The notes under the pieces: generated by a model
What the model saw: the letters and a program-made list of their open reading frames with translations, nothing else
What the model was told of the DNA's origin: nothing
Databases searched by the model: none
Translations under genes and position numbers: made by a program
From: a bacterium
Lineage (GTDB): Bacteria; SZUA-182; DTGQ01
Length of the DNA: 30,961 bases
Assembly: GCA_023512255.1 (NCBI GenBank)
Contig: JAILZY010000040.1
Location: 1-30,961, forward strand
Direction of reading: 5' to 3'
Shown here: positions 2,798 through 30,926 of the stretch, piece by piece
How positions within the stretch are numbered: the first letter of the stretch is position 1
Layout: each line of letters begins with the position of its first letter

Positions 2798-5700
2798 TCA
2801 ATAAACCGACAGATCATCGATCAAAACATTTCCACCAATGGCTACACTGTCAATACTGCTCAGATCAATATAGCCATAGTATGCTTGCAGCAGATCCTCA
2901 AGATTCAAGGTCAAGATATGCCACTTACCGTCAGTGTAGGATGGCCCAAGATAGCTATACGCCCAGGTACCAATGGAAGCTCCACTCTGAGCAGTCCCAC
3001 CGGTAGCATAGAGGAAGTTATACTCCACAGAGTAGCTGTCCCTTACCTTGAACCAGAGCATAAACTCACTCTTAGCCTTAATACGCAAGGTAACACTCTT
3101 GCCGGTGGCATTCAGATTCGTGGCCGCTAGATACCGAGCAGGGAAGGCTGCATCGGCTTCAGGAACAATAGAGATAACCTGACTATGAACCTCAGGGTCA
3201 TAGACCATGCTAATATCTCCTAGCCCAGCCGCATTATCGTACCAATTGCTCAGCATACTGCAATCATCAATATGGGTGAACTGGCGTGGCACGGCTGAGA
3301 CCTCAACACCATTACTTTCTAATTCATCCTTCATCACCTGAATAATTCTGAAAGTGTAAGGAAGATCATTGGTCAGGCCGCCCACCTGATAACTATACTC
3401 ATTAGCGGTACCGACAATTGGATTATTGGGAATAACAATCGCTTCCCCTCCATCGATCGAGAGGAGGAACTCTTTCACTGCCGACGGATCAGCACTACTC
3501 CAGCTTAATCCTACCGAGCCATTGCCTGGTCTGGCGATCAGATTATCGACGTCTGGAATAGCCTTTTCTAACCGAATATTATCGATGTCACCTTCCCCTC
3601 TAAAGATAATCCCAAGCAGATACTTAAAGGTTACATTCTCAAGACCTTTCGCATCCTGAAGATCTCGATTCAGGTTTCTGACTATGCTACGCCATTCGTT
3701 TGCATCCTGCATCTTCCATCCGAGGTAGTGAGTGATGTAGAGCCCCTGTTGAATCTTATCCGGAGGATTGCAATAGTCGTACTCTCTGGTAATGTCTGGC
3801 TGGTAACTCATGAAATATTTATTACCGTTGCTTGCCAAGATGCAGAATTCGACGCGACAGTTTCCGCTAGATCTTAGATCAAAATGAAGCTCTGGATTGT
3901 TATATTCCTCGGGGTTATCCATCCATTTGACTACGATGAAATTCAGCTTGGCGCTGGCACTCGTAGTCAGGTTCATATAAGATCTTGTACCTTCCACTAC
4001 CCGGTTGATACTGCCTGTTCCCTGGAGACGGAACCAGCCATGATCAGTAGGCTTATCTACTCCTGGATAGTCAAAATCATCTACCGAAATCTCAACCGGA
4101 GTAGATGGCTTTACCATAACCGAAACCGAAGAGGCATTTGGAGGAGATGCATTATCATAAGCCTTGACGGTAAAAGTATACTGCCTGTCATTCTCAAGGT
4201 TAGTTATCCGATAGCTGGTTACTGTTTTATCCACCACCTTAATGGAACTTCCATCCTGGAAAATCTCAAAGAAGTCCAGATCAGCGTCAGACGGGCGGAC
4301 CCAGCTCAGCAAAACGGCCTTATTCTGCGGTGTAGCGCTAAGAGCATTAGCTGGCCAGACCGGAGCCGTTGTATCCTTCTGAGGTTGCATAGAGATGGAA
4401 ACTCCATTGCTGACATTCCCAATTATCTTACCGCTATTATCCCTCACTGGAGCATTGTCAAAGGCTTTGACCGTGAAGGTATAATTCTTGCCATTAATCA
4501 ATCCAGTAACCGTACACATGGTGGCTGTGGCCGGCACCTTATCAACCTTGGTCCCCACCGTCTCGATCAGATAGCCAATAGTATCGCTATCCTGATCAGC
4601 AGGAATGGTCCAGGAGAGGATCACGGCTTTATCCTTGGCAATGGCGGTCAGATTTTCAACATCCCGCGGGGGCTTTAAATCCAAAGTGCCCTTAGCCACA
4701 GCAATATCATCAATGGAATCTATATCTCCCCGCAAGATAATGCCCATCAGATAATCGTAGTGAACCTGATATCCATCCTGAGTGGCAGCAATGGCCTTAT
4801 TCAGGTCGCTTTCCATACTGCGCTTAATCTGACAACCAGCAGGATTAATATATCTCTTGCCGATATACCAGTTAATATAAAGGCCCCTGACCTCAAATTC
4901 CTTGTTATTAACCGGATCTTGAGGAATGTAGCGCAGGAAATAATTCTTGCCCTGGCCGCTGTTGTCAATAGCATGGACACAGACCTCAAAATAGTAGAGG
5001 TTGCGATCGGCAATAGTGAATTGCAATTCAGGGAAGCCCTGGGTATCAAGGGGATTATTGAGCCATTTGGTAATGATATATTGAAGCTGCCCAGTAGCTG
5101 AAGTATTATTAGGATCAGTGTAGGATGTGATCGTCTTCAGATAGTGATTAACCTGCTCACCCTCTGCCTCTTCCATAACCATCATCTGTCCCTGGCCCTG
5201 CAAACTGATCCAGCCGTTATCCGATGGTTTTGGCTGGCTGGCCGGATATTCGAAGTCCTCAACCACTTTTGAAGGATAGATTACCTGAATCTGAATATTC
5301 TTAGTAACCGATAGGTTAGTCGGCTGGCCATCGGTTTCCTGAATCTTGAAGGAGGCCTGATAAATACCCTGGTTGATAGCCGAGGCGCCAACAGCCGGTG
5401 TCCAACTCAAGATATTGTTAGCAAAGGTAGCCCCTTCTGGCAAGCTAAGTGCTGAGCACACCAGCCGGTTATTATCCGCATCGCTGCCGATGATCTCAAG
5501 GGTAAGGGGTTCGGCTTCATTGACGCTAACCACTGTGTCGACAATCTGGCCACCCTTTTTGATGGTCATGGTCGGAGTGCGATTGCCAATGGTTACGGCT
5601 GCTGTCAGGTGAGCAGGGCCATCGGTCTGACCATCGGAAGGAGTAACCTTGCAGGTATACTGAGCCCCTTGAACCAGAACAATACCTGATGGCAGCGTGG

Positions 5701-7882
5701 CGCTAGTCGAAGAAGTATTGCTCGTGCTACTGCCGGAAATTGGCTGGCCATCCTTGAACCATTCGTAGGTGTAGCGTACGGCATCTCCATCTGGATCGCT
5801 ACTTGGAGTAGTTATAGTGCATACTAGGATAGAGTCCTTATAGGGACTGGCAGGAGTGATTGAGGCCACCGGCTTGGTCGGTGGATTATTGACAATAGTA
5901 ATATTCTGAGCCGCCGGATTTCGTACATAATCCGTTGTGGCCGTACCGTCAGTGACCGCAACCTCACAGTACCAGGTCTGGTTCTTGGCCAGCCCTGAAG
6001 ACAAAACCTGGCTCAGCTCCGTGGTTGGCCCTTGAATTACGGCAGGCTGGACAACGCCACCTACCGTGCAAACCCATTTGTAAATATATTTTATAGTGTC
6101 GCCGCTATCGGCATCAGTAGCTGGCTGCCCTACGGTGCACTTTAAGCCATTGGCCACTTTCTCAATCGAAATGCTACCAGGAGCTGATGGAGCTGTATTG
6201 CCGATGGTCAAGGAATTAGAGGTGCCAACATTAGCTGTGCTAACCCCGCCCTCGGTCAAAGTAGCCTTACATACCCAGGTCTCACCCTTTTGGGTTTGAC
6301 TAGCTGGAAGGGTTAAGCCAGTATTGCTGGTTTCCTGACCATTCTTGAACCATTTCAAAGTATACCCCAAGGAGTCACCATCTGCATCTGAGCATCCGCT
6401 GATGCTTACTGTTGCCGTCAGGTCAGAACTAGTGGTCGGATTAGCTGGACCGATGCTCACGCTCGGAGTTCCAGTAGCCGGAGTATTGGCAATAGTTACT
6501 GTATTTGAAGCTACAGCCGCGCTTTCACCATCAAAGGGAGTATCTTTGACCGTAACCGAACAGGACCAGGATTCCCCCTTGGCCGTGCGGCTGCTCGGTA
6601 CCGTGTTCCCTGTAAGATCGCTCTGCACGGCTCCATTCTTATACCAGGTATAGGTGTAAGTTACCGGATCCCCCAATGGATCAGCGCCACCTTGGGCTGT
6701 ACAGACCAGATTATCGCTGGTCTTGGGACTGGCCGGTGTAATTACTACCGAAGTCGGTGGGCTGGGCTTTCCATCAGTAACCAAAACAGTGAAGGTTTTA
6801 GAGCCAGTCTTATCGTTACTAGCTTCGATGGTCACGGTATACTCTTTGAGGGTAGTGCCCACCGGGCTCCAGATTATTTTAGCTTTATTCGGATTGGCCG
6901 CATCCTTAGTAATGGTCATATTGCTGTCCGGAGTATTTTTAAGGGCCCAGGAGATGATGTTCTCCCCCTCATCAGGATCAGAGCCTACAATCTCAAGGGC
7001 AAATTGCTGCCCTGGCTTGATCACATATTTACCGTTGACTTCTCTAATATCAGACCCAGAAGCCTTGGCAATAGAGTCGATCCGTGGCGGAGAGTTGACG
7101 GCTAAGACAATCTGGTTTGCATATTCATCGACACACTCAAAGCCTGACTGGCATAGGCTAGAGAGATCAAAACTTGCAATCGTCGCTGCCTTGCTGCCAT
7201 AGCTTCCTCCCAGACACTTGACAGTTATTGACTCCCCGCCATTTAAGGTCAGATACTTTTTGCTGCTTTGACTAAACAGTGTTCCACCACCCAAGCTGAC
7301 AGTTCCATCGCCGTAGTCATCAACCCAGCCGGAGTTCCAGTCACCGGCGACCGGATAGCTTGCTCCAGCAACTTCCATATAGACAAAAGCTCCCGTAGCC
7401 GGAGTTACCCCATCTGCCTGATACACTCTAAAGGTTATCGAAGGGTTAGGAGGAGGAGTATTCCCTTGGGCTCCTTCATCAAACTGGGTTACCACCTCTT
7501 TGAAAGGCGCGGCTGGCGGATAATAATACTCAACACCATTTTCTACCACCTTAATCTGGTAGTAGTATGTCTGCTGAGCAGCCAATCCCGTAACCTGAAC
7601 GGCCATGACGCCGTTATTAATGTTGACTTTAGACTCACAAGAGCTATTTGTGTTTCGGCTAGTTCCTGCCTGGTCATTATAGACTATGGCCTCGACAGTC
7701 GATATTGTTCCATCAATTTTAGCTTCCCAAGCCACACAAAAAGAGTTAAAGGTAACATCATAGGTAACAGGATCTCCAATTACTGAAAATGCCCTGGCAA
7801 ACTGAGGCGATATTAACCAAAAAAGGCTAAAAAACCCAATGGATAAAGAAACCAATAAAAACCTTTTTAGAGATTTGGGCAT
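2798..7882 (-). CDS. Giant exported multidomain Ig/fibronectin III surface protein (1694 aa)
   Basis: This is a secreted or surface-attached protein of unknown function, probably adhesive or matrix-forming. Start 7882 is preferred because AGGAGGAGG lies 5 nt upstream and a clean signal peptide follows (MPKSLKRFLLVSLSIGFF..., cut after ARA). An alternative ATG at 7945 overlaps the upstream stop as TAATG and would add 21 polar residues. Approximate domain order: N-terminal Fn3-like (25-130); a second module with VYQADGVTPATGA (140-270); a cadherin/Ig-like domain (275-375); four Ig-like repeats with WYKNG/WFKNG/WFKDG cores and paired cysteines (375-765); another cadherin-like domain (765-865); module A (873-1065); two Fn3 (1070-1262); module B, homologous to A (1266-1442); Fn3 (1443-1540); a C-terminal beta-sandwich (1545-1694). 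No sortase, PEP-CTERM or membrane anchor is visible at the C-terminus. It is second in a two-gene unit with the 490-residue protein, whose N-terminal half it resembles. The fold assignments are by eye. Confidence 0.85.
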   Translation of the reverse strand: MPKSLKRFLLVSLSIGFFSLFWLISPQFARAFSVIGDPVTYDVTFNSFCVAWEAKIDGTISTVEAIVYNDQAGTSRNTNSSCESKVNINNGVMAVQVTGLAAQQTYYYQIKVVENGVEYYYPPAAPFKEVVTQFDEGAQGNTPPPNPSITFRVYQADGVTPATGAFVYMEVAGASYPVAGDWNSGWVDDYGDGTVSLGGGTLFSQSSKKYLTLNGGESITVKCLGGSYGSKAATIASFDLSSLCQSGFECVDEYANQIVLAVNSPPRIDSIAKASGSDIREVNGKYVIKPGQQFALEIVGSDPDEGENIISWALKNTPDSNMTITKDAANPNKAKIIWSPVGTTLKEYTVTIEASNDKTGSKTFTVLVTDGKPSPPTSVVITPASPKTSDNLVCTAQGGADPLGDPVTYTYTWYKNGAVQSDLTGNTVPSSRTAKGESWSCSVTVKDTPFDGESAAVASNTVTIANTPATGTPSVSIGPANPTTSSDLTATVSISGCSDADGDSLGYTLKWFKNGQETSNTGLTLPASQTQKGETWVCKATLTEGGVSTANVGTSNSLTIGNTAPSAPGSISIEKVANGLKCTVGQPATDADSGDTIKYIYKWVCTVGGVVQPAVIQGPTTELSQVLSSGLAKNQTWYCEVAVTDGTATTDYVRNPAAQNITIVNNPPTKPVASITPASPYKDSILVCTITTPSSDPDGDAVRYTYEWFKDGQPISGSSTSNTSSTSATLPSGIVLVQGAQYTCKVTPSDGQTDGPAHLTAAVTIGNRTPTMTIKKGGQIVDTVVSVNEAEPLTLEIIGSDADNNRLVCSALSLPEGATFANNILSWTPAVGASAINQGIYQASFKIQETDGQPTNLSVTKNIQIQVIYPSKVVEDFEYPASQPKPSDNGWISLQGQGQMMVMEEAEGEQVNHYLKTITSYTDPNNTSATGQLQYIITKWLNNPLDTQGFPELQFTIADRNLYYFEVCVHAIDNSGQGKNYFLRYIPQDPVNNKEFEVRGLYINWYIGKRYINPAGCQIKRSMESDLNKAIAATQDGYQVHYDYLMGIILRGDIDSIDDIAVAKGTLDLKPPRDVENLTAIAKDKAVILSWTIPADQDSDTIGYLIETVGTKVDKVPATATMCTVTGLINGKNYTFTVKAFDNAPVRDNSGKIIGNVSNGVSISMQPQKDTTAPVWPANALSATPQNKAVLLSWVRPSDADLDFFEIFQDGSSIKVVDKTVTSYRITNLENDRQYTFTVKAYDNASPPNASSVSVMVKPSTPVEISVDDFDYPGVDKPTDHGWFRLQGTGSINRVVEGTRSYMNLTTSASAKLNFIVVKWMDNPEEYNNPELHFDLRSSGNCRVEFCILASNGNKYFMSYQPDITREYDYCNPPDKIQQGLYITHYLGWKMQDANEWRSIVRNLNRDLQDAKGLENVTFKYLLGIIFRGEGDIDNIRLEKAIPDVDNLIARPGNGSVGLSWSSADPSAVKEFLLSIDGGEAIVIPNNPIVGTANEYSYQVGGLTNDLPYTFRIIQVMKDELESNGVEVSAVPRQFTHIDDCSMLSNWYDNAAGLGDISMVYDPEVHSQVISIVPEADAAFPARYLAATNLNATGKSVTLRIKAKSEFMLWFKVRDSYSVEYNFLYATGGTAQSGASIGTWAYSYLGPSYTDGKWHILTLNLEDLLQAYYGYIDLSSIDSVAIGGNVLIDDLSVY

Positions 7883-7944
7883 ATTGACCTCCTCCTTTCG
7901 CTCTCCATTTTTCCTACTATAAAAATTTGATCTTATATTTTTCA

Positions 7945-9417
7945 TTATTTAATTACCAGCGGATCAACTGTCAATGTCCCTGCCCCTGCAGGAATAGAAT
8001 CCATAATGACTAAATAAGCTTTTCCTCTTTCAATCAAAACCTCCCCATTAGCCGCAGGAGTGATCTTGGGCCCTGTGGACAGATAGACGACACTTGCCAC
8101 TGGCCAGGAACCCTTGTCATACCGTTTGATCTGCTTAACCTTCCCGCCAGCTACTGAGATTGCCTTGACTAGATCGGAAATTTTATAGAAGCTTGGAATC
8201 TGAGTAAAATTGACCACATTCATACCAGCCCTTAAGGTGATAGTGGTTGGAGTCGGCGATCCGCTGATATAAAAATTCTGAGGCAGGGCAGTCCCATCCA
8301 TGATAACCAGATATCCTTCACCAGGATTAATCGGGACCTCCCCATTAGCCGCAGGAGTGATCTTAGGCCCTGTGGACAGATAGACGACACTTGCCACTGG
8401 CCAGGAACCCTTATCATACCGTTTGATCTGCTTAACCTTCCCGCCAGCCAGATATATCGCCTCAACTAGCTTTTTGATCGTATATCCCGCCGGTACCTCA
8501 AACGGATAGGAGAAGGTATTCATTCCGGCCTGAAAAATGATCTTCGTGGCTGCCTTGGCTGAGCTGATCTCCTGATTCCCTACCTTGGTAATTCCCGGAA
8601 CCGGCATGATCTGGACTGTGTCTCCAGCTACCGGAGTCACCCCCGGAATCACTACTACCTTAATATAATTCCCCTCAACCACACTAGTCGTAGTCGGATC
8701 ATCTCCAGTCAACTGGAGCGGGAACAAATCCTCTGCCGGCGTAGCTGGATCATCAGCAAACAGGTTGTTCAAATTTAAGGCTGCATATTCTTTGTAGGAA
8801 ATATTATCAGAATCGAAAGTCTTAGCTGTATAAGATGCGGCCTGGGGATTGCCCGGCATACCGAACCCAACCCAGCCGGTAAGGGGATAGGCGCTTTTTT
8901 TCTTCGTGCAGCTTGCATCCTCATAAATTTCAGCCATCACCAGAGCACCCAAAGCAGGGGTTTTCCCATCGGCATTGTAGACTGCGACATGGAAAATATC
9001 ATTGGTAACAATGTCATTAGCCTCAGGATCAAGTGAAACCAGCCCCCTAAACAGGGCGGTAGTTACCGGTTTTTCACCGGTGAAGGCACTTCCATCTCTC
9101 CTGGTTCCCGAATAAATATAGGTAGTGCCATAATCTAACCCTACAACCTCATACTTGATCACTCCGCGATTCAAAGCATCTGCATCAGATTCCAAAATAA
9201 TCTGGCTGTTTTCTACAAATGCTCCTCCCTTTTTCTGCACCTTGAGGCTGCAAGCGCCTAACCCTGGAGAGCTTTCTGTCCAAACCACACTAAAGGATCT
9301 GGTGGTTACATCGGTAACTGTCGGCTCCAGAGCCCAGACCGATACCGAAAGAAAGACCATACCCACCAACATAAAAATAAAAAGGCAGGCTATCTGATTG
9401 CCCCTAACAAATTTCAT
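7945..9417 (-). CDS. Exported Fn3-like protein with two near-identical C-terminal modules (490 aa)
   Basis: This is an exported protein of unknown function. A signal peptide occupies residues 1-30 (hydrophobic IACLFIFMLVGMVFL, cut after VWA). A fibronectin-III-like domain follows, with TDVTTRSFSVVW. Next comes a module with VYNADGKTPALGALVMAE, also found in the giant neighbour. The C-terminal 190 residues hold two copies of a module of about 99 residues with AGMN..., GGKVKQIKRYDKGSWPVASV and GEGYLVIMDG/GKAYLVIMD; 37 residues are identical between copies. I know this type of module ("YD..W...PGEGYFV") from large exported proteins of deltaproteobacteria, without a known role. Start 9417 has AAAGGGGG upstream. 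Its TAA overlaps an ATG of the downstream frame (TAATG), and a sigma-54-like promoter lies about 165 nt upstream. It probably forms one transcription unit with the giant surface protein. Confidence 0.85.
   Translation of the reverse strand: MKFVRGNQIACLFIFMLVGMVFLSVSVWALEPTVTDVTTRSFSVVWTESSPGLGACSLKVQKKGGAFVENSQIILESDADALNRGVIKYEVVGLDYGTTYIYSGTRRDGSAFTGEKPVTTALFRGLVSLDPEANDIVTNDIFHVAVYNADGKTPALGALVMAEIYEDASCTKKKSAYPLTGWVGFGMPGNPQAASYTAKTFDSDNISYKEYAALNLNNLFADDPATPAEDLFPLQLTGDDPTTTSVVEGNYIKVVVIPGVTPVAGDTVQIMPVPGITKVGNQEISSAKAATKIIFQAGMNTFSYPFEVPAGYTIKKLVEAIYLAGGKVKQIKRYDKGSWPVASVVYLSTGPKITPAANGEVPINPGEGYLVIMDGTALPQNFYISGSPTPTTITLRAGMNVVNFTQIPSFYKISDLVKAISVAGGKVKQIKRYDKGSWPVASVVYLSTGPKITPAANGEVLIERGKAYLVIMDSIPAGAGTLTVDPLVIK
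8039..8448 (-). repeat. 113-bp near-identical intragenic repeat, two copies 297 bp apart
   Basis: Positions 8039-8151 and 8336-8448 are the same 113-bp sequence with two differences (G/A in CTTGGGCC and in CCCTTGTCAT). Both differences are silent, leaving 37 identical residues. The flanking parts of the two modules are more diverged, so either gene conversion or a recent local duplication within an older tandem domain pair explains the pattern. Confidence 0.9.
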
Positions 9418-26640: not shown

Positions 26641-27396
26641 TAATTAGTAAGGACGGGCTTGAAAAACACAAGAGGTTGACTTGGCAAAAAGAAACTTTTC
26701 GAATCCACCCTCTCCTGCCCTTTGTGAAAAATTTTTCATAAACATCAACTCCTTCAAAAGGATAACCTTAAACCAATAAATTCTGCAGAGTATGAAAAAT
26801 TTTGCAAATAAGGAGCTTCTCCAAAGCTCAGGGCCAGAGCATCAAACAAAAACTCTCTTCAAGTTTTACTTTTAAAAACACCAAATTATTCAAATAAATA
26901 TCTAGTAAATATCTATATGTAAATTAAAAGTACTCATTTATCCTAAAATTTTTAGCTTGGCATGGGTATTGCTAGAAATTAAAGAAGAATTATTATTTTT
27001 CTATAACTTGGCTTCAATATAATACACCATAATACACCTGGTTATTTAAGGAGGTAAGGCCTCAACCAAAAGAGCAGGATTAAGCTTATAAATCCACAGT
27101 TCCCCGAGAAAATTCTGAAAAATCGCCTTGAAATCCAAATGCAGTCAGAACTACTGATTCGCCTGTAGTTTTTCTAAATCGCTTCTTATTGCTATCAAAG
27201 AAAAAATTGAACCAACCAAATCTGGGTTTAAACAAGGCCATAAGCTATTCTAAGGAGGTGAGAGCTGGAAGAATAAAAGAATATTATCTTTTATTACCTT
27301 AGCCGGAGCAGCGAATGTCTCGGAAAATGTCTTGGTAAGGAGCTGTTTTTCTCAAAAGTCGGGTTAAAATGTAATACCAATGAGGAGGTATGTGAG
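26641..27396 (+). other. Long leader/intergenic region upstream of the Gly/Tyr repeat gene
   Basis: 756 bp without a convincing gene. It contains a sigma-54-like promoter at 26957. Downstream of it are two strong ribosome-site strings without long frames (AAGGAGGTAAG near 27050, AAGGAGGTGAG near 27252; the latter could serve a 14-codon GTG-initiated peptide). There is also a hairpin AACTAC/GTAGTT followed by TTTCT (27149-27174) that could end a small RNA or attenuate. If the promoter is used, the transcript leader before ATG 27397 is about 410 nt. Confidence 0.5.
26957..26973 (+). promoter_or_regulatory. Sigma-54 (RpoN)-type -24/-12 promoter, near consensus
   Basis: TTGGCATGGGTATTGCT matches YTGGCACGRNNNTTGCW at every defined position except the seventh base (T for C), with exact GG-to-GC spacing. 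It points toward the secreted Gly/Tyr/Leu repeat protein at 27397. RpoN-dependent promoters need an enhancer-binding activator; no such gene or binding site was identified in the window. Confidence 0.72.
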
Positions 27397-27855
27397 ATGA
27401 ACAGGTTTTTGAAAGTCAGTCTGATTTTTATCATGGTAATAGTTTTAAGCTTTACGGCTGCAAAAAAAAGTGAAGCCTATTACGGTCTTTATGGTGGGCT
27501 CTATGGCTATGGCCTCTACGGCGGCCTCTATGGCCTCTACGGCGGCCTCTATGGCCTCTACGGCGGCCTCTATGGCCTCTACGGCGGCCTCTATGGCCTG
27601 TATGGCGGCCTCTATGGTATGGGCCTTTATGGCCTCTATGGCCTATACAGTCCCTTCGGTCTACAAAATATGTACTATCCGGTTGAGACCGGCACTGGTC
27701 TAACCTATCAGATTCCGTTCCTGCAGATAGCTCCGCTGCTTGGAATCGCTGGTCTCTACAATTCTCTCTTCCCCTATCTGTTTAATCCGCAAAGCGCTAC
27801 AGCGCCCTCGGTTGCTCCGACCACAACGGTAACCACTACACCGATTGTAACCTGA
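27397..27855 (+). CDS. Secreted Gly/Tyr/Leu-rich tandem-repeat protein (152 aa)
   Basis: The function is not known; composition suggests a self-assembling structural or matrix protein. A Sec signal peptide occupies about residues 1-27 (basic MNRFLK, hydrophobic VSLIFIMVIVLSF, cut near KKSEA). Residues 28-88 are almost only Gly, Leu and Tyr, built from GGLYGLY heptapeptides; four fit a 21-bp DNA repeat. The following 40 residues are ordinary (VETGTGLTYQIPFLQIAPLLG), and the last 20 are rich in Ala/Pro/Thr (PSVAPTTTVTTTPIVT). There is no cysteine and no retention signal. Start 27397 has GAGGAGG about 8 nt upstream. It is monocistronic: a sigma-54-like promoter lies far upstream and an intrinsic terminator directly follows. 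Other Gly/Tyr-rich exported proteins form amyloid-like, silk-like or cross-linked matrices; this one is likened to them on composition only. Confidence 0.85.
   Translation: MNRFLKVSLIFIMVIVLSFTAAKKSEAYYGLYGGLYGYGLYGGLYGLYGGLYGLYGGLYGLYGGLYGLYGGLYGMGLYGLYGLYSPFGLQNMYYPVETGTGLTYQIPFLQIAPLLGIAGLYNSLFPYLFNPQSATAPSVAPTTTVTTTPIVT
27520..27603 (+). repeat. 21-bp coding tandem repeat, four units
   Basis: The 21-bp unit encoding GGLYGLY is repeated at 27520-27540, 27541-27561, 27562-27582 and 27583-27603. The first three are identical and the fourth differs at two silent positions in its last two codons. Partial units flank the array on both sides (27493-27519, 27604-27618). Exact identity suggests ongoing copy-number change by slippage. 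Confidence 0.95.
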
Positions 27856-27886: not shown

Positions 27887-27922
27887 AAAAACCCACAGCA
27901 AAAATTTGTTGTGGGTTTTTTA
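27887..27922 (+). terminator. Rho-independent terminator of the repeat-protein gene
   Basis: AAAAACCCACA (27887-27897) pairs with TGTGGGTTTTT (27910-27920) around a 12-nt loop, continuing into a T-tract. It lies 32 bp after the stop codon and separates this gene from the methyltransferase downstream. Confidence 0.88.
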
Positions 27923-28023
27923 TTGCCTAGTCTTCAAAAAGCTGCTAAGAATAAAAAATATTAGGATGGGGATGTGGAGAACATCTGGCGCGCGAGCAAG
28001 TGGAAGTGATGGAGAGTATCCCG

Positions 28024-29022
28024 ATGATAAAACCTCAAGTTGTCAAAGCGGCTACCTGCATTTTGTGTGGCCCTGTTCAAAGCAAAATAGTTGCCCGCGG
28101 TGATTCTTTCGGATATCAGTCAGCCGATCTGGTCCGCTGCCCAAAGTGTAATCTCTGGTGGATCGATCCTCTGCCCTCCTCTATCCAGATAAAGGAATTT
28201 TATCCCCCACACTATTATGGGATAGAAAATAAAAAATTTCCCGAATACCTGGAAATCTTTGTCCGGCTCTTTTGCCGCCTGAGGATGAAAAAAGCAGCCA
28301 GCCTCCTCAACCCTGGAGGGAGGAGGGTACTTGACATTGGCTGTGGCCGAGGGCAGTCATTGAAAATCCTCAGCCAGTACGGGTATGAGTGCTACGGCAC
28401 TGAGCTGTCTGCCTTTGCCGCTCGCGCTGCCTCCTCAGTGCCTCAGGCTCGCATTTTCACTCAAAGCCTTCTCGATTGTCATTTTCCTGACCGATTCTTC
28501 GATCTTGTTCTGATGTGGCATGTTCTTGAGCATCTGCCTAACCCGAAGGAGGTCATAGGCGAGATTTTTCGGATTCTCACCCCTGGGGGCACCCTGCTCC
28601 TTTGCGTGCCGAATATTGAAAGTATTCAGGCCAGACTTTCCGGCCGAAGGTGGTTTCACCTTGATCTTCCCCGACATCTTTACCACTATAGTCCATCTGC
28701 CCTGCGCGGCCTGCTCGCTCGATGCGGCTTTCATATCATTCGCTGCCATACCTTTTCCATAGAGCAAGGACCTTTCGGACTGCTTCAGAGCATTCTCAAC
28801 CAGATCGGATTTCCCCAAGATGGCCTCTACCGGATGCTTCATCGCACCTTGCCGGACAATACCTTTTCCTTCCTCTCCAGGCTGGCCCAAATGGGAATTT
28901 TCCTCATCTCTATGCCTCTTATGATCTGGCTGTGCGGGCTCTTCTCTCTCCTTGGCCAGGGTGGAGTTATTGATATTCAGGCCCAAAAACCTGCTGAAGC
29001 AAGAAAGGTGCGCCACCCATGA
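28024..29022 (+). CDS. Class I SAM-dependent methyltransferase with N-terminal zinc-ribbon-like motif
   Basis: This is a predicted methyltransferase of unknown acceptor. The N-terminus has two cysteine pairs, CILC and CPKC, about 40 residues apart, resembling a zinc ribbon. The Rossmann domain follows with LDIGCGRGQSLKIL (SAM motif I), the acidic residue in CYGTELS, and FDLVLMWHVLEHLPNP, then LTPGGTLLLCVPN. The last 50 residues include a hydrophobic stretch (MGIFLISMPLMIWLCGLF) that may bind membrane. This layout is common in polysaccharide and glycoconjugate clusters. Start ATG 28024 (MIKPQ) is chosen because GGAGAG lies 7 nt upstream; a GTG at 28000 would add eight residues. Its TGA overlaps the next start as ATGA, so it is coupled to the TMTC-like gene and may methylate a sugar or lipid-linked intermediate of the same pathway. 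Confidence 0.85.
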   Translation: MIKPQVVKAATCILCGPVQSKIVARGDSFGYQSADLVRCPKCNLWWIDPLPSSIQIKEFYPPHYYGIENKKFPEYLEIFVRLFCRLRMKKAASLLNPGGRRVLDIGCGRGQSLKILSQYGYECYGTELSAFAARAASSVPQARIFTQSLLDCHFPDRFFDLVLMWHVLEHLPNPKEVIGEIFRILTPGGTLLLCVPNIESIQARLSGRRWFHLDLPRHLYHYSPSALRGLLARCGFHIIRCHTFSIEQGPFGLLQSILNQIGFPQDGLYRMLHRTLPDNTFSFLSRLAQMGIFLISMPLMIWLCGLFSLLGQGGVIDIQAQKPAEARKVRHP

Positions 29023-30926
29023 CCGCCAGGCTGCCCAAAACCTCAGCCTCTGCCCTGATCTCATCGAGCCTGACAAATCAAGCCTCAGCAGCTTCCGGCA
29101 AGCAGCTTACTCTGGCCATATTGCTTCTTTTCCTGTTGGTGACACTCTGTTTTGTTAACTCTCTCCCCAATTCGCTACTCAATTGGGACGATCAGGTATA
29201 TATCCAAGAAAATCCCTCCTTGCGCACACTTTCCTGGTCTAGCCTCAAGTCGCTCTTCAGCCGACCCTATTTCAAGAACTACGCTCCCATTCATATCCTT
29301 TCCTACCAGATTGACTACCGTCTCTTTCGCCTCCGGCCCCAAGGCTATCGGATGGTAAACATTCTGCTTCATGTTTTAAACAGCATCTTAATCTTTTTCC
29401 TGATCCTAAAATGCTATCCGCAGGGCTTTTTGACAGCTCTGGCCGCAGCCGCTCTCTTTGCTGTGCACCCTATCCATGTAGAGTCTGTGGTCTGGATCTC
29501 ACAGCGAAAGGATGTCCTATCGGCCTGCTTTTTTCTCCTCGCTCTGCACGGATATATAATATTTCGCCAAAAAGCCCGCCGCGGCCGCATCTGGTACGGC
29601 CTCTCCCTGGGATTATTCTGTCTTGCCCTGCTCACCAAGCCAACAGCAGTAACCCTTCCTCTGATTCTGATCCTCTATGAGCTATGCTTTCGAGGGAAAG
29701 AAGATCGGGCTAGCGGCAGACAACTTATGGCCACCGCTCCTTTTTTCTTCCTGGCTGCTCTCTCGGCCGCAGCTACCTTGTGGGCGCAGTATGTCGATAC
29801 TGGAATCAAGCAGTATGTGGGGCAAAGCTTTCTTATATCTTTCCTTCTAACTGGGAAAATTCTGATTCTCTATCTGTGGAAGCTTATCCTACCAATCGGT
29901 CTATCGAACCTCTATGTATTTTTGATCAAAAGGCTTGATGAGCTTATCACGCCCTCGCTTTTCTTCTCCTGGGCGCTTATACTAATATTTCTAGCCGGGC
30001 TAATATGGCTTTGGAGAAAGAAGAGAAAAGAGCTTGCCTTTCCAGGCCTCTGGTTTCTGATCACCCTTCTTCCGGTGGCTAATCTCATTCCTACCAGCAC
30101 TCAGATGGCTGACCGCTATCTGTACCTCCCTTCTTTGGGGTATTGTCTGGCCGTAGGGCTCATAATCCAGGCTCTTAGCCAATGGGCCGGAGGGCAGGAT
30201 GAAGAGGGAAGGGTTTTTCGCTGGGCTCACCTTCTCATTCTAGTTGGCCTGCTCATAGTCTATAGCTCTCTGACCATAGCCAGAAACCGCGTCTGGCGCA
30301 ATGATCGCACCCTGTGGAAAGATGCCCTGGCCAAAGACCCGGCTAATTACCATGCGGCCACAGGTCTAGCCAGTGCCCTTCTAGTTGAGGCTCAAAGGGA
30401 GCGATCAGTCAGCCAGAAGAAATATTATCTACAGCAGGCTGCAAAACTCTTGCAGCAGGGGCTTTCCATCAAACCAGATTTTGCCCTGGCCCACCTTGGA
30501 ATGGGTAGTGTCCTGCTGGAGGAGGGAAAAGCCAAGGAGGCTATCCCATTTTTGCTCAAAGCCCGCAGATTCAATGACGAGCGAAGATATGCCAGCCGTA
30601 TTGAATACAATCTGGCCGTAGCCTACCTAAAATCTGGCCAGCGAAAAGCCGCAGAGAGAAGCTTTATTTCAGCTATCAGACAAGATCAAACCTTTGCTTT
30701 AGCCTACCTTGCCCTTGGCACCCTCTACTTTGACTCCGGCACTCCGCAAGGGTACCAGATGGCCGAAGAACAGTACCTGAAAGCCACCAGAATAGCTCCC
30801 CATGATCCGCGAGGATTCTTTTACCTAGCCATAGCTAGAGAACGGCTAGGGAAGCTCTCCTTGGCCGCAGAAAATTATCAACAGGCAGATGTTCCCCATG
30901 TTGAAAAAATAATGTTGAAAATATAA
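29019..30926 (+). CDS. Polytopic TMTC-like (GT-C fold) glycosyltransferase with C-terminal TPRs
   Basis: This is a predicted membrane glycosyltransferase of the type that uses a lipid-phosphate sugar donor. The N-terminal two-thirds is polytopic (about ten hydrophobic helices). The first extracytoplasmic loop has LLNWDDQVYI, the acidic catalytic-type motif, followed by YFKNYAPIHILSYQIDY, ALFAVHPIHVESVVWISQRKDVL (shown as AVHPIHVESVVW and ISQRKDVL), and later PTSTQMADRYLYLPSLGY. This pattern matches TMTC/DUF1736-type proteins, whose eukaryotic members are protein O-mannosyltransferases. The C-terminal 200 residues are TPR-like helical repeats (DPANYHAATGLASALL, PDFALAHLGMGSVLLEEGKAKEAI quoted in part). 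Start 29019 overlaps the upstream stop by 4 nt (ATGA). At 635 residues it is complete, ending in TAA. Its last 41 bases lie inside the 73-bp repeat. Substrate and sugar are unknown. Confidence 0.85.
   Translation: MTARLPKTSASALISSSLTNQASAASGKQLTLAILLLFLLVTLCFVNSLPNSLLNWDDQVYIQENPSLRTLSWSSLKSLFSRPYFKNYAPIHILSYQIDYRLFRLRPQGYRMVNILLHVLNSILIFFLILKCYPQGFLTALAAAALFAVHPIHVESVVWISQRKDVLSACFFLLALHGYIIFRQKARRGRIWYGLSLGLFCLALLTKPTAVTLPLILILYELCFRGKEDRASGRQLMATAPFFFLAALSAAATLWAQYVDTGIKQYVGQSFLISFLLTGKILILYLWKLILPIGLSNLYVFLIKRLDELITPSLFFSWALILIFLAGLIWLWRKKRKELAFPGLWFLITLLPVANLIPTSTQMADRYLYLPSLGYCLAVGLIIQALSQWAGGQDEEGRVFRWAHLLILVGLLIVYSSLTIARNRVWRNDRTLWKDALAKDPANYHAATGLASALLVEAQRERSVSQKKYYLQQAAKLLQQGLSIKPDFALAHLGMGSVLLEEGKAKEAIPFLLKARRFNDERRYASRIEYNLAVAYLKSGQRKAAERSFISAIRQDQTFALAYLALGTLYFDSGTPQGYQMAEEQYLKATRIAPHDPRGFFYLAIARERLGKLSLAAENYQQADVPHVEKIMLKI

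Follow-up and report, generated by a model that had tools for sequence, protein, structure and literature searches.

Results

A GLYG-repeat gene with a long leader

In the 30,961-nt stretch of DNA analyzed here, referred to below as the window, positions 27397..27855 of the forward strand (stop codon included) encode a protein of 152 residues that starts at an ATG at 27397. An earlier note on this DNA had placed the open reading frame at these coordinates; they are correct, and the frame is coding. The gene has its own Shine-Dalgarno sequence, GAGGAGGT (27382..27389, +; read directly from the sequence), which is conserved in the ortholog of a same-genus genome. Farther upstream, 145 nt 5' of the start codon, lies another Shine-Dalgarno-like sequence, AAGGAGGTG (27252..27260, +), which we call the leader element and which is conserved in the leader of the ortholog as well. 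Downstream of the gene, ACCCACAGC ... GTTGTGGGT followed by a T-run (27887..27922, +; also read directly) forms a probable intrinsic terminator, which suggests that the transcript is monocistronic. An open reading frame that overlaps the gene in another frame (27470-27703) was considered as a gene and dismissed as a by-product of the repeat.

The first 27 residues of the protein, MNRFLKVSLIFIMVIVLSFTAAKKSEA (27397..27477, +), form a predicted Sec signal peptide with cleavage before YYG, and an ...AYYG junction recurs across the paralogs described below. The basic start, the hydrophobic core and the SEA-YYG junction are consistent with the earlier proposal that the protein is secreted, as are the signal-peptide-like N-termini of nearly all of the paralogs, signal peptides having been assigned by eye and with a crude hydrophobicity rule. 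An AlphaFold model shows residues 2-20 of the signal peptide as a helix.

Residues 28-84 (27478..27648, +) make up a Gly/Leu/Tyr repeat region of spacer-free GLYG/GGLYG motifs, in which successive Tyr residues are mostly 3 or 4 positions apart. A 21-bp tandem repeat that encodes GGLYGLY underlies positions 27507..27617 (+; 5.3 copies, 97% match and a score of 208 in TRF), and three consecutive units are identical at the DNA level, which bears out the exact repeat reported earlier. The run made of Gly, Leu and Tyr only, which the earlier note had put at about 60 residues, is present but shorter: strictly it spans 47 residues (28-74), or 57 if one Met is allowed, and the regular Tyr spacing claimed for it is seen within the strict run. 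When the protein's own composition was shuffled in 20,000 trials, the longest such run had a mean of 6.7 residues and a maximum of 17.

Between the repeat and a Thr/Pro-rich tail lies a conserved module of 48 residues, SPFGLQNMYYPVETGTGLTYQIPFLQIAPLLGIAGLYNSLFPYLFNPQ (27649..27792, +), whose alignment across 20 proteins shows 11 invariant columns. The tail itself (27793..27852, +), noticed before, ends in TTTPIVT, and C-termini of this -P[VIAT][IVTL] type recur in the family. The 48-aa module, the paralogous family and the leader element 145 nt upstream had escaped the earlier note.

In the AlphaFold model the repeat is disordered, with pLDDT <50 over residues 23-86 and no strands, and the amyloid-like stacking suggested earlier for its tyrosines is thus not supported. 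Nor did any Pfam or NCBIfam family, including those of functional amyloids (curli, Fap and others), match the protein at E values up to 1. AlphaFold2 models the 48-aa module with low confidence (pLDDT about 60) as a beta-hairpin plus a helix; the helix (residues 108-124) corresponds to an uncharged hydrophobic stretch, IPFLQIAPLLGIAGLYNSLF, and is broken in a second AlphaFold model. For the module, Pfam, NCBIfam and PHROGs held no relative, and solved structures offered no convincing one.

A methyltransferase gene and then a gene for a 635-aa multi-spanning TPR protein occupy positions 28000-30926 of the window. In the same-genus genome this downstream pair is likewise kept beside the GLYG gene, and the upstream neighbors differ; that the two proteins modify the Thr/Pro-rich tail is only a thought. 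Elsewhere in the window, two large exported proteins are encoded at 2798-9417 (-), one of them 1715 aa long with FN3 and Ig-like domains. The window also contains genes that we take to belong to the Kdo pathway, and the organism therefore looks diderm.

A dispersed family restricted to one order

DNA and protein searches recovered about 27 GLYG-repeat genes on 18 contigs of the focal genome, which is a draft of 172 contigs, 96.6% complete, with genes called by a simple longest-ORF script. The genes are dispersed, mostly standing singly in unrelated neighborhoods. Their products range from 131 to 477 aa with repeats of variable length, and two of them (C46_263 and C50_1820) have little beyond the repeat and a short tail. 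The 48-aa module is present in 6 copies, so that about three quarters of the family are without it; the focal protein has all of the features of the family, namely the signal peptide, the GLYG-type repeat and the module. The other recurrent C-terminal architecture is a beta-like domain of ~115 aa (EQAGTWQGTWSSG...TPVI), with 19 copies in the focal genome and 23 in the same-genus genome and with no convincing match in Pfam or the PDB. Module and beta-like domain occur together in two proteins, C46_23421 and C12_19658. The beta-like domain is also found behind Pro/Tyr/Leu-rich linkers that are not of the GLYG type (L129, L130, L131, L132 and L134), including three tandem genes in L132. In both same-genus genomes, a related exported protein of YGYSPYGASYGS-type repeats adjoins a GLYG gene (L041 6286-7266 (-), contig C157, and L074 842-1900 (-)).

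Among 386 genomes, matches to the focal protein were confined to its own genome and four relatives, all of one order, and the other 381 genomes gave none. The earlier note had advised searching related genomes for exported proteins of the GGLYGLY type, and these four genomes are where they were found; a search with the beta-like domain gave the same one-order range. Of nine genomes of the phylum, four contain the 48-aa module and five the beta-like domain. The relatives include the metagenome bins JAFGSM01 (isolate Zod_Metabat.896) and DAOURK01 (CSMAG_150). The Zod_Metabat series originates from Zodletone Spring, and that relative is thus from an anoxic sulfidic spring. The family had no match in Pfam, NCBIfam or PHROGs, and an origin from a phage, plasmid or virus was rejected, as there were no matches among phages, plasmids and viral contigs. 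The GLYG-repeat family is real and conserved and, as far as the searched libraries and the literature go, previously undescribed.

Purifying selection on the repeat and its flanks

Twelve ortholog pairs between the focal and the same-genus genome gave dN/dS values of 0.10-0.18 outside the repeats and 0.05-0.11 inside them in the pairs that allowed the measurement, silent sites being nearly saturated; for the focal gene the values were 0.13 outside and 0.06 inside. Because dN/dS inside the repeats is low while silent sites are near saturation, it is the amino-acid pattern of the repeats that is maintained and not just their DNA, and the codons drift. The repeats and the 48-aa module are under strong purifying selection. 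The earlier note had held that relatives in which this region is frameshifted without consequence would speak against its reading; all 12 pairs align in frame. The earlier note had predicted length variation between strains; at the species level, the focal protein (152 aa) and its ortholog (164 aa) differ by 12 residues, and length varies among the paralogs as well. The signal peptide, the 48-aa module and the leader are kept in related genera.

A leader element and a C-terminal pattern enriched in the family

Between 60 and 200 nt upstream of the start codon, the leader element was found in 15 of 27 family genes, versus 5 of 67 other genes with signal-peptide-like or hydrophobic N-termini and none of 110 genes without such N-termini. 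The four related genomes gave 18 of 41 family genes versus 3 of 119 others (p=6e-10), a result that is a replication and not a blind test, since some of these relatives had already been seen in the ortholog comparison. About half of the family lacks the element. Its distance to the start codon is 70-188 nt, many cases being near 100 nt, and the leader sequence of the focal gene is partly conserved in the ortholog. The element is complementary to the usual anti-Shine-Dalgarno sequence. A start codon follows 3-12 nt after it at 7 of 30 sites, versus 39% expected by chance, and at the focal site there is none; a leader peptide translated from the element was rejected on these grounds. Riboswitches and other known RNA families were likewise rejected, as only tRNAs reached gathering scores in the window and the 18 family loci. 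No 16S gene was found in the draft of 172 contigs, and three exact matches to GGATCACCTCCTT were discarded as candidates for the 16S 3' end, since they lie inside open reading frames and match no Rfam family.

The same leader element also occurs outside the family. It accompanies a second family of exported low-complexity proteins (NW.ALPPYNTLWPLWSP..., with Pro/Thr-rich tails; L120 18303-19001 (-) and L125 12456-13193 (+)), one member of which ends in APVI, and a PEP-CTERM protein of the same-genus genome (L133 245-823 (+)).

The family is further marked by its C-terminus. The pattern -P[VIAT][IVTL], followed by at most two residues, ends 15 of 27 family proteins versus 1 of 338 other genes, and 15 of 41 family proteins versus 0 of 113 others in the related genomes, but it is only a lead, because it was chosen after inspection of the sequences and is shared by descent in the members with the beta-like domain. 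The sole other gene with a C-terminus of the family type has the leader element too.

Discussion

A probable cohesive material outside the cell

An obvious question is what the exported GLYG-repeat proteins do. From the spacer-free GLYG repeat and the behavior of its analogues, we infer a self-cohering structural protein that is exported and made together with its paralogs, the leader element common to many of their genes pointing to coordinated expression. By analogy, the focal protein probably contributes to an extracellular protein material that is cohesive. We give slightly better than even chances to the view that this protein, exported and disordered, serves as a cohesive structural element of a surface or of the extracellular matrix, and that it and its relatives form a family of exported structural proteins peculiar to their lineage. 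Self-association on a backbone of Gly and Tyr, as the earlier note had envisaged, draws support from published experiments on near-identical sequences, the condensing analogues there being purified peptides or designed repeats.

One possible course of events is as follows. A monocistronic mRNA with a long leader would be transcribed, and the non-initiating, Shine-Dalgarno-like leader element would probably bind a 30S subunit or another factor, which may raise mRNA stability or ribosome loading as for proteins that are needed in bulk. The protein would then be exported by the Sec pathway through its signal peptide. Beyond the inner membrane, the spacer-free GLYG/GGLYG repeat would be disordered as a monomer and may condense with itself and with paralogs through Tyr-Tyr stacking, hydrogen bonds of Tyr and of the backbone, and Leu contacts to give a cohesive gel or solid. 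The 48-aa module, or the ~115-aa beta-like domain in other paralogs, may be the folded portion by which the chain attaches to the cell surface or to a partner. How a cohesive chain crosses the outer membrane of a diderm is left unexplained by this account and counts against it, as does the lack of the leader element in about half of the family.

Other gene products bear on the cell exterior. The PEP-CTERM proteins encoded in the same-genus genome (L133, above) and, with a marginal score, in the focal genome (L051 5788-6384 (-)) fit an elaborate exterior, and the focal genome encodes large proteins with HYR, Ig, FN3 and cohesin domains. At L056 3243-6497 (+), a 1084-aa exported protein combines a cohesin, a He_PIG and seven HYR domains with a GLYG/Trp/Tyr-rich tail, and it may serve the GLYG family as a partner or an anchor.

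Alternative explanations

Alternatively, the 48-aa module may insert its hydrophobic helix into a membrane, in which case the focal protein would be anchored in the envelope and would not belong to the matrix. It would then be a surface protein or adhesin in which the Tyr/Gly-rich repeat acts as a sticky brush for attachment to surfaces or other cells, with no bulk material being made. The uncharged stretch that is modelled as helix 108-124 would suit such an anchor, and export, richness in Tyr and a repeat length that varies among paralogs would suit an adhesin. We nevertheless consider this unlikely, given that the repeat is N-terminal to the helix, that the ~115-aa domain comes after the helix in some paralogs, that the second model shows a broken helix and that about three quarters of the family do without the module. 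Less likely again is a quite different role, exerted by the folded modules, such as the binding of a ligand or glycan, with the GLYG repeat as no more than a flexible linker. Such a role would account for the conservation of the beta-like domain across the order and for its occurrence behind linkers of another kind (L129, L130 and L131), but the repeats are the part that the family shares, they are themselves conserved, and C46_263 and C50_1820 consist of little else.

The regularly placed tyrosines also invite the idea, raised by the earlier note, of dityrosine cross-linking, by which a peroxidase or oxidase would turn the proteins into an insoluble covalent sheath, and resilin offers a precedent for it (PMC6393770). 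That suggestion is weakened by the finding of no haem-copper oxidase in the 96.6% complete genome, which, together with the origin of a relative from an anoxic sulfidic spring, makes an oxidizing exterior unlikely; moreover, none of the family genes was seen beside an oxidase gene, neighbors being judged by their N-termini. A cross-linked coat is therefore a long shot. Finally, three identical 21-bp units point to recent duplication or homogenization, as would be expected of low-complexity sequence born of slippage and devoid of function. The dN/dS values far below 1 in repeats and flanks of the 12 ortholog pairs, along with the retention of signal peptide, module and leader in related genera, refute this in practice.

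Comparison with known systems

PEP-CTERM proteins in other bacteria accompany exosortase and extracellular polysaccharide. The GLYG proteins resemble these matrix proteins in being exported and in having many dispersed paralogs, but the PEP-CTERM sorting domain, made up of a PEP motif, a hydrophobic helix and a basic tail, is absent from the focal protein, which has no TIGR02595 match and the tail TTTPIVT.

The leader element recalls the STAB-SD of Bacillus thuringiensis cry3A, a Shine-Dalgarno-like sequence near -129 that starts no translation and blocks RNase J1 (PMC4113751). Like the STAB-SD, the family element lies far upstream and usually has no start codon after it. Unlike the case of cry3A, protection from RNase J does not fit, since RNase J had no match in the focal genome, where RNase E/G and RNase Y are present, and the classical RNase J-blocking mechanism is thus not supported. 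If the element is mRNA-stabilizing, it must act against other nucleases; or else it works differently. The shared element would be a candidate for a leader signal based on the Shine-Dalgarno sequence in a genome in which no RNase J was found.

For the repeat, cohesion of short G-L-aromatic-G motifs has been studied in the GLFG repeats of Nup98 and their engineered variants. When GLFG was changed to GLYG, the repeats condensed more readily, with a saturation concentration too low for the assay to detect, and the same paper reports that cohesion rises with shorter spacers (PMC9918544). Nup98 GLFG domains have long hydrophilic spacers and serve in the transport barrier of the nuclear pore, whereas the GLYG protein is spacer-free and exported from a bacterium; it contains no motifs with hydrophilic spacers of the Nup98 type and has no Pfam match. 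The histidine-rich proteins of squid beak contain GHGLY repeats, whose coacervation is driven by the stacking of Tyr residues (PMC10766971). The G-x-G-L-Y pattern is common to these and the GLYG proteins, but coacervation of the beak proteins is triggered by pH through His, and the focal repeat is without His.

The corneous beta-proteins of turtles, the material of tortoiseshell, are intracellular, in keratinizing cells. Their Gly-rich regions follow the patterns G-X, G-G-X or G-G-G-X, where X is usually Tyr or Leu, and include GGLYG, and, as in the GLYG family, a variable repeat region adjoins a conserved core (PMC8074788). The turtle proteins differ in their conserved beta-sheet core and Cys-containing peptides, neither of which is seen in the focal protein.

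Squid ring teeth (suckerins, SRT) provide near-identical repeat wording: the amorphous motif of LvSRT-18kDa is YGYGGLYGGLYGGLGY (PMC4555047), and a disordered SRT segment is STGTLSYGYGGLYGGLYGGLGYG (PMC6393770). In the amorphous segments, Gly gives flexibility and Tyr provides hydrogen bonding, and the 47-residue run of the focal protein is a segment of this Gly/Tyr/Leu-rich kind. Disorder, secretion and the many related proteins per material are further points of likeness. In squid ring teeth, however, the amorphous segments alternate with Ala/His-rich beta-sheet crystal blocks, PAAASVSTVHHP (PMC6393770); no such block occurs in the focal protein or the listed paralogs, and the GLYG family has C-terminal modules of its own. 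The likeness is most likely due to convergence, and there is no evidence for common descent.

The probable working principle is already known from animal structural proteins; the family itself is undescribed as far as the searched libraries and the literature go. A bolder version of the matrix reading, to which we give somewhat less than even odds, is that a material akin to squid ring teeth and tortoiseshell arose independently in an uncultivated bacterial order, where dozens of co-regulated, exported GLYG proteins are made in bulk by way of a shared leader element, are possibly addressed by a shared C-terminal tag and condense outside the cell into a solid or gel. Should the repeats condense like the near-identical animal and designed sequences, the family would be a bacterial equivalent, independently reached, of the proteins of squid ring teeth and tortoiseshell. 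It would then supply the study of materials with a compact natural collection of exported repeat proteins and open a way to the cell surface of a bacterial lineage that is uncultivated.
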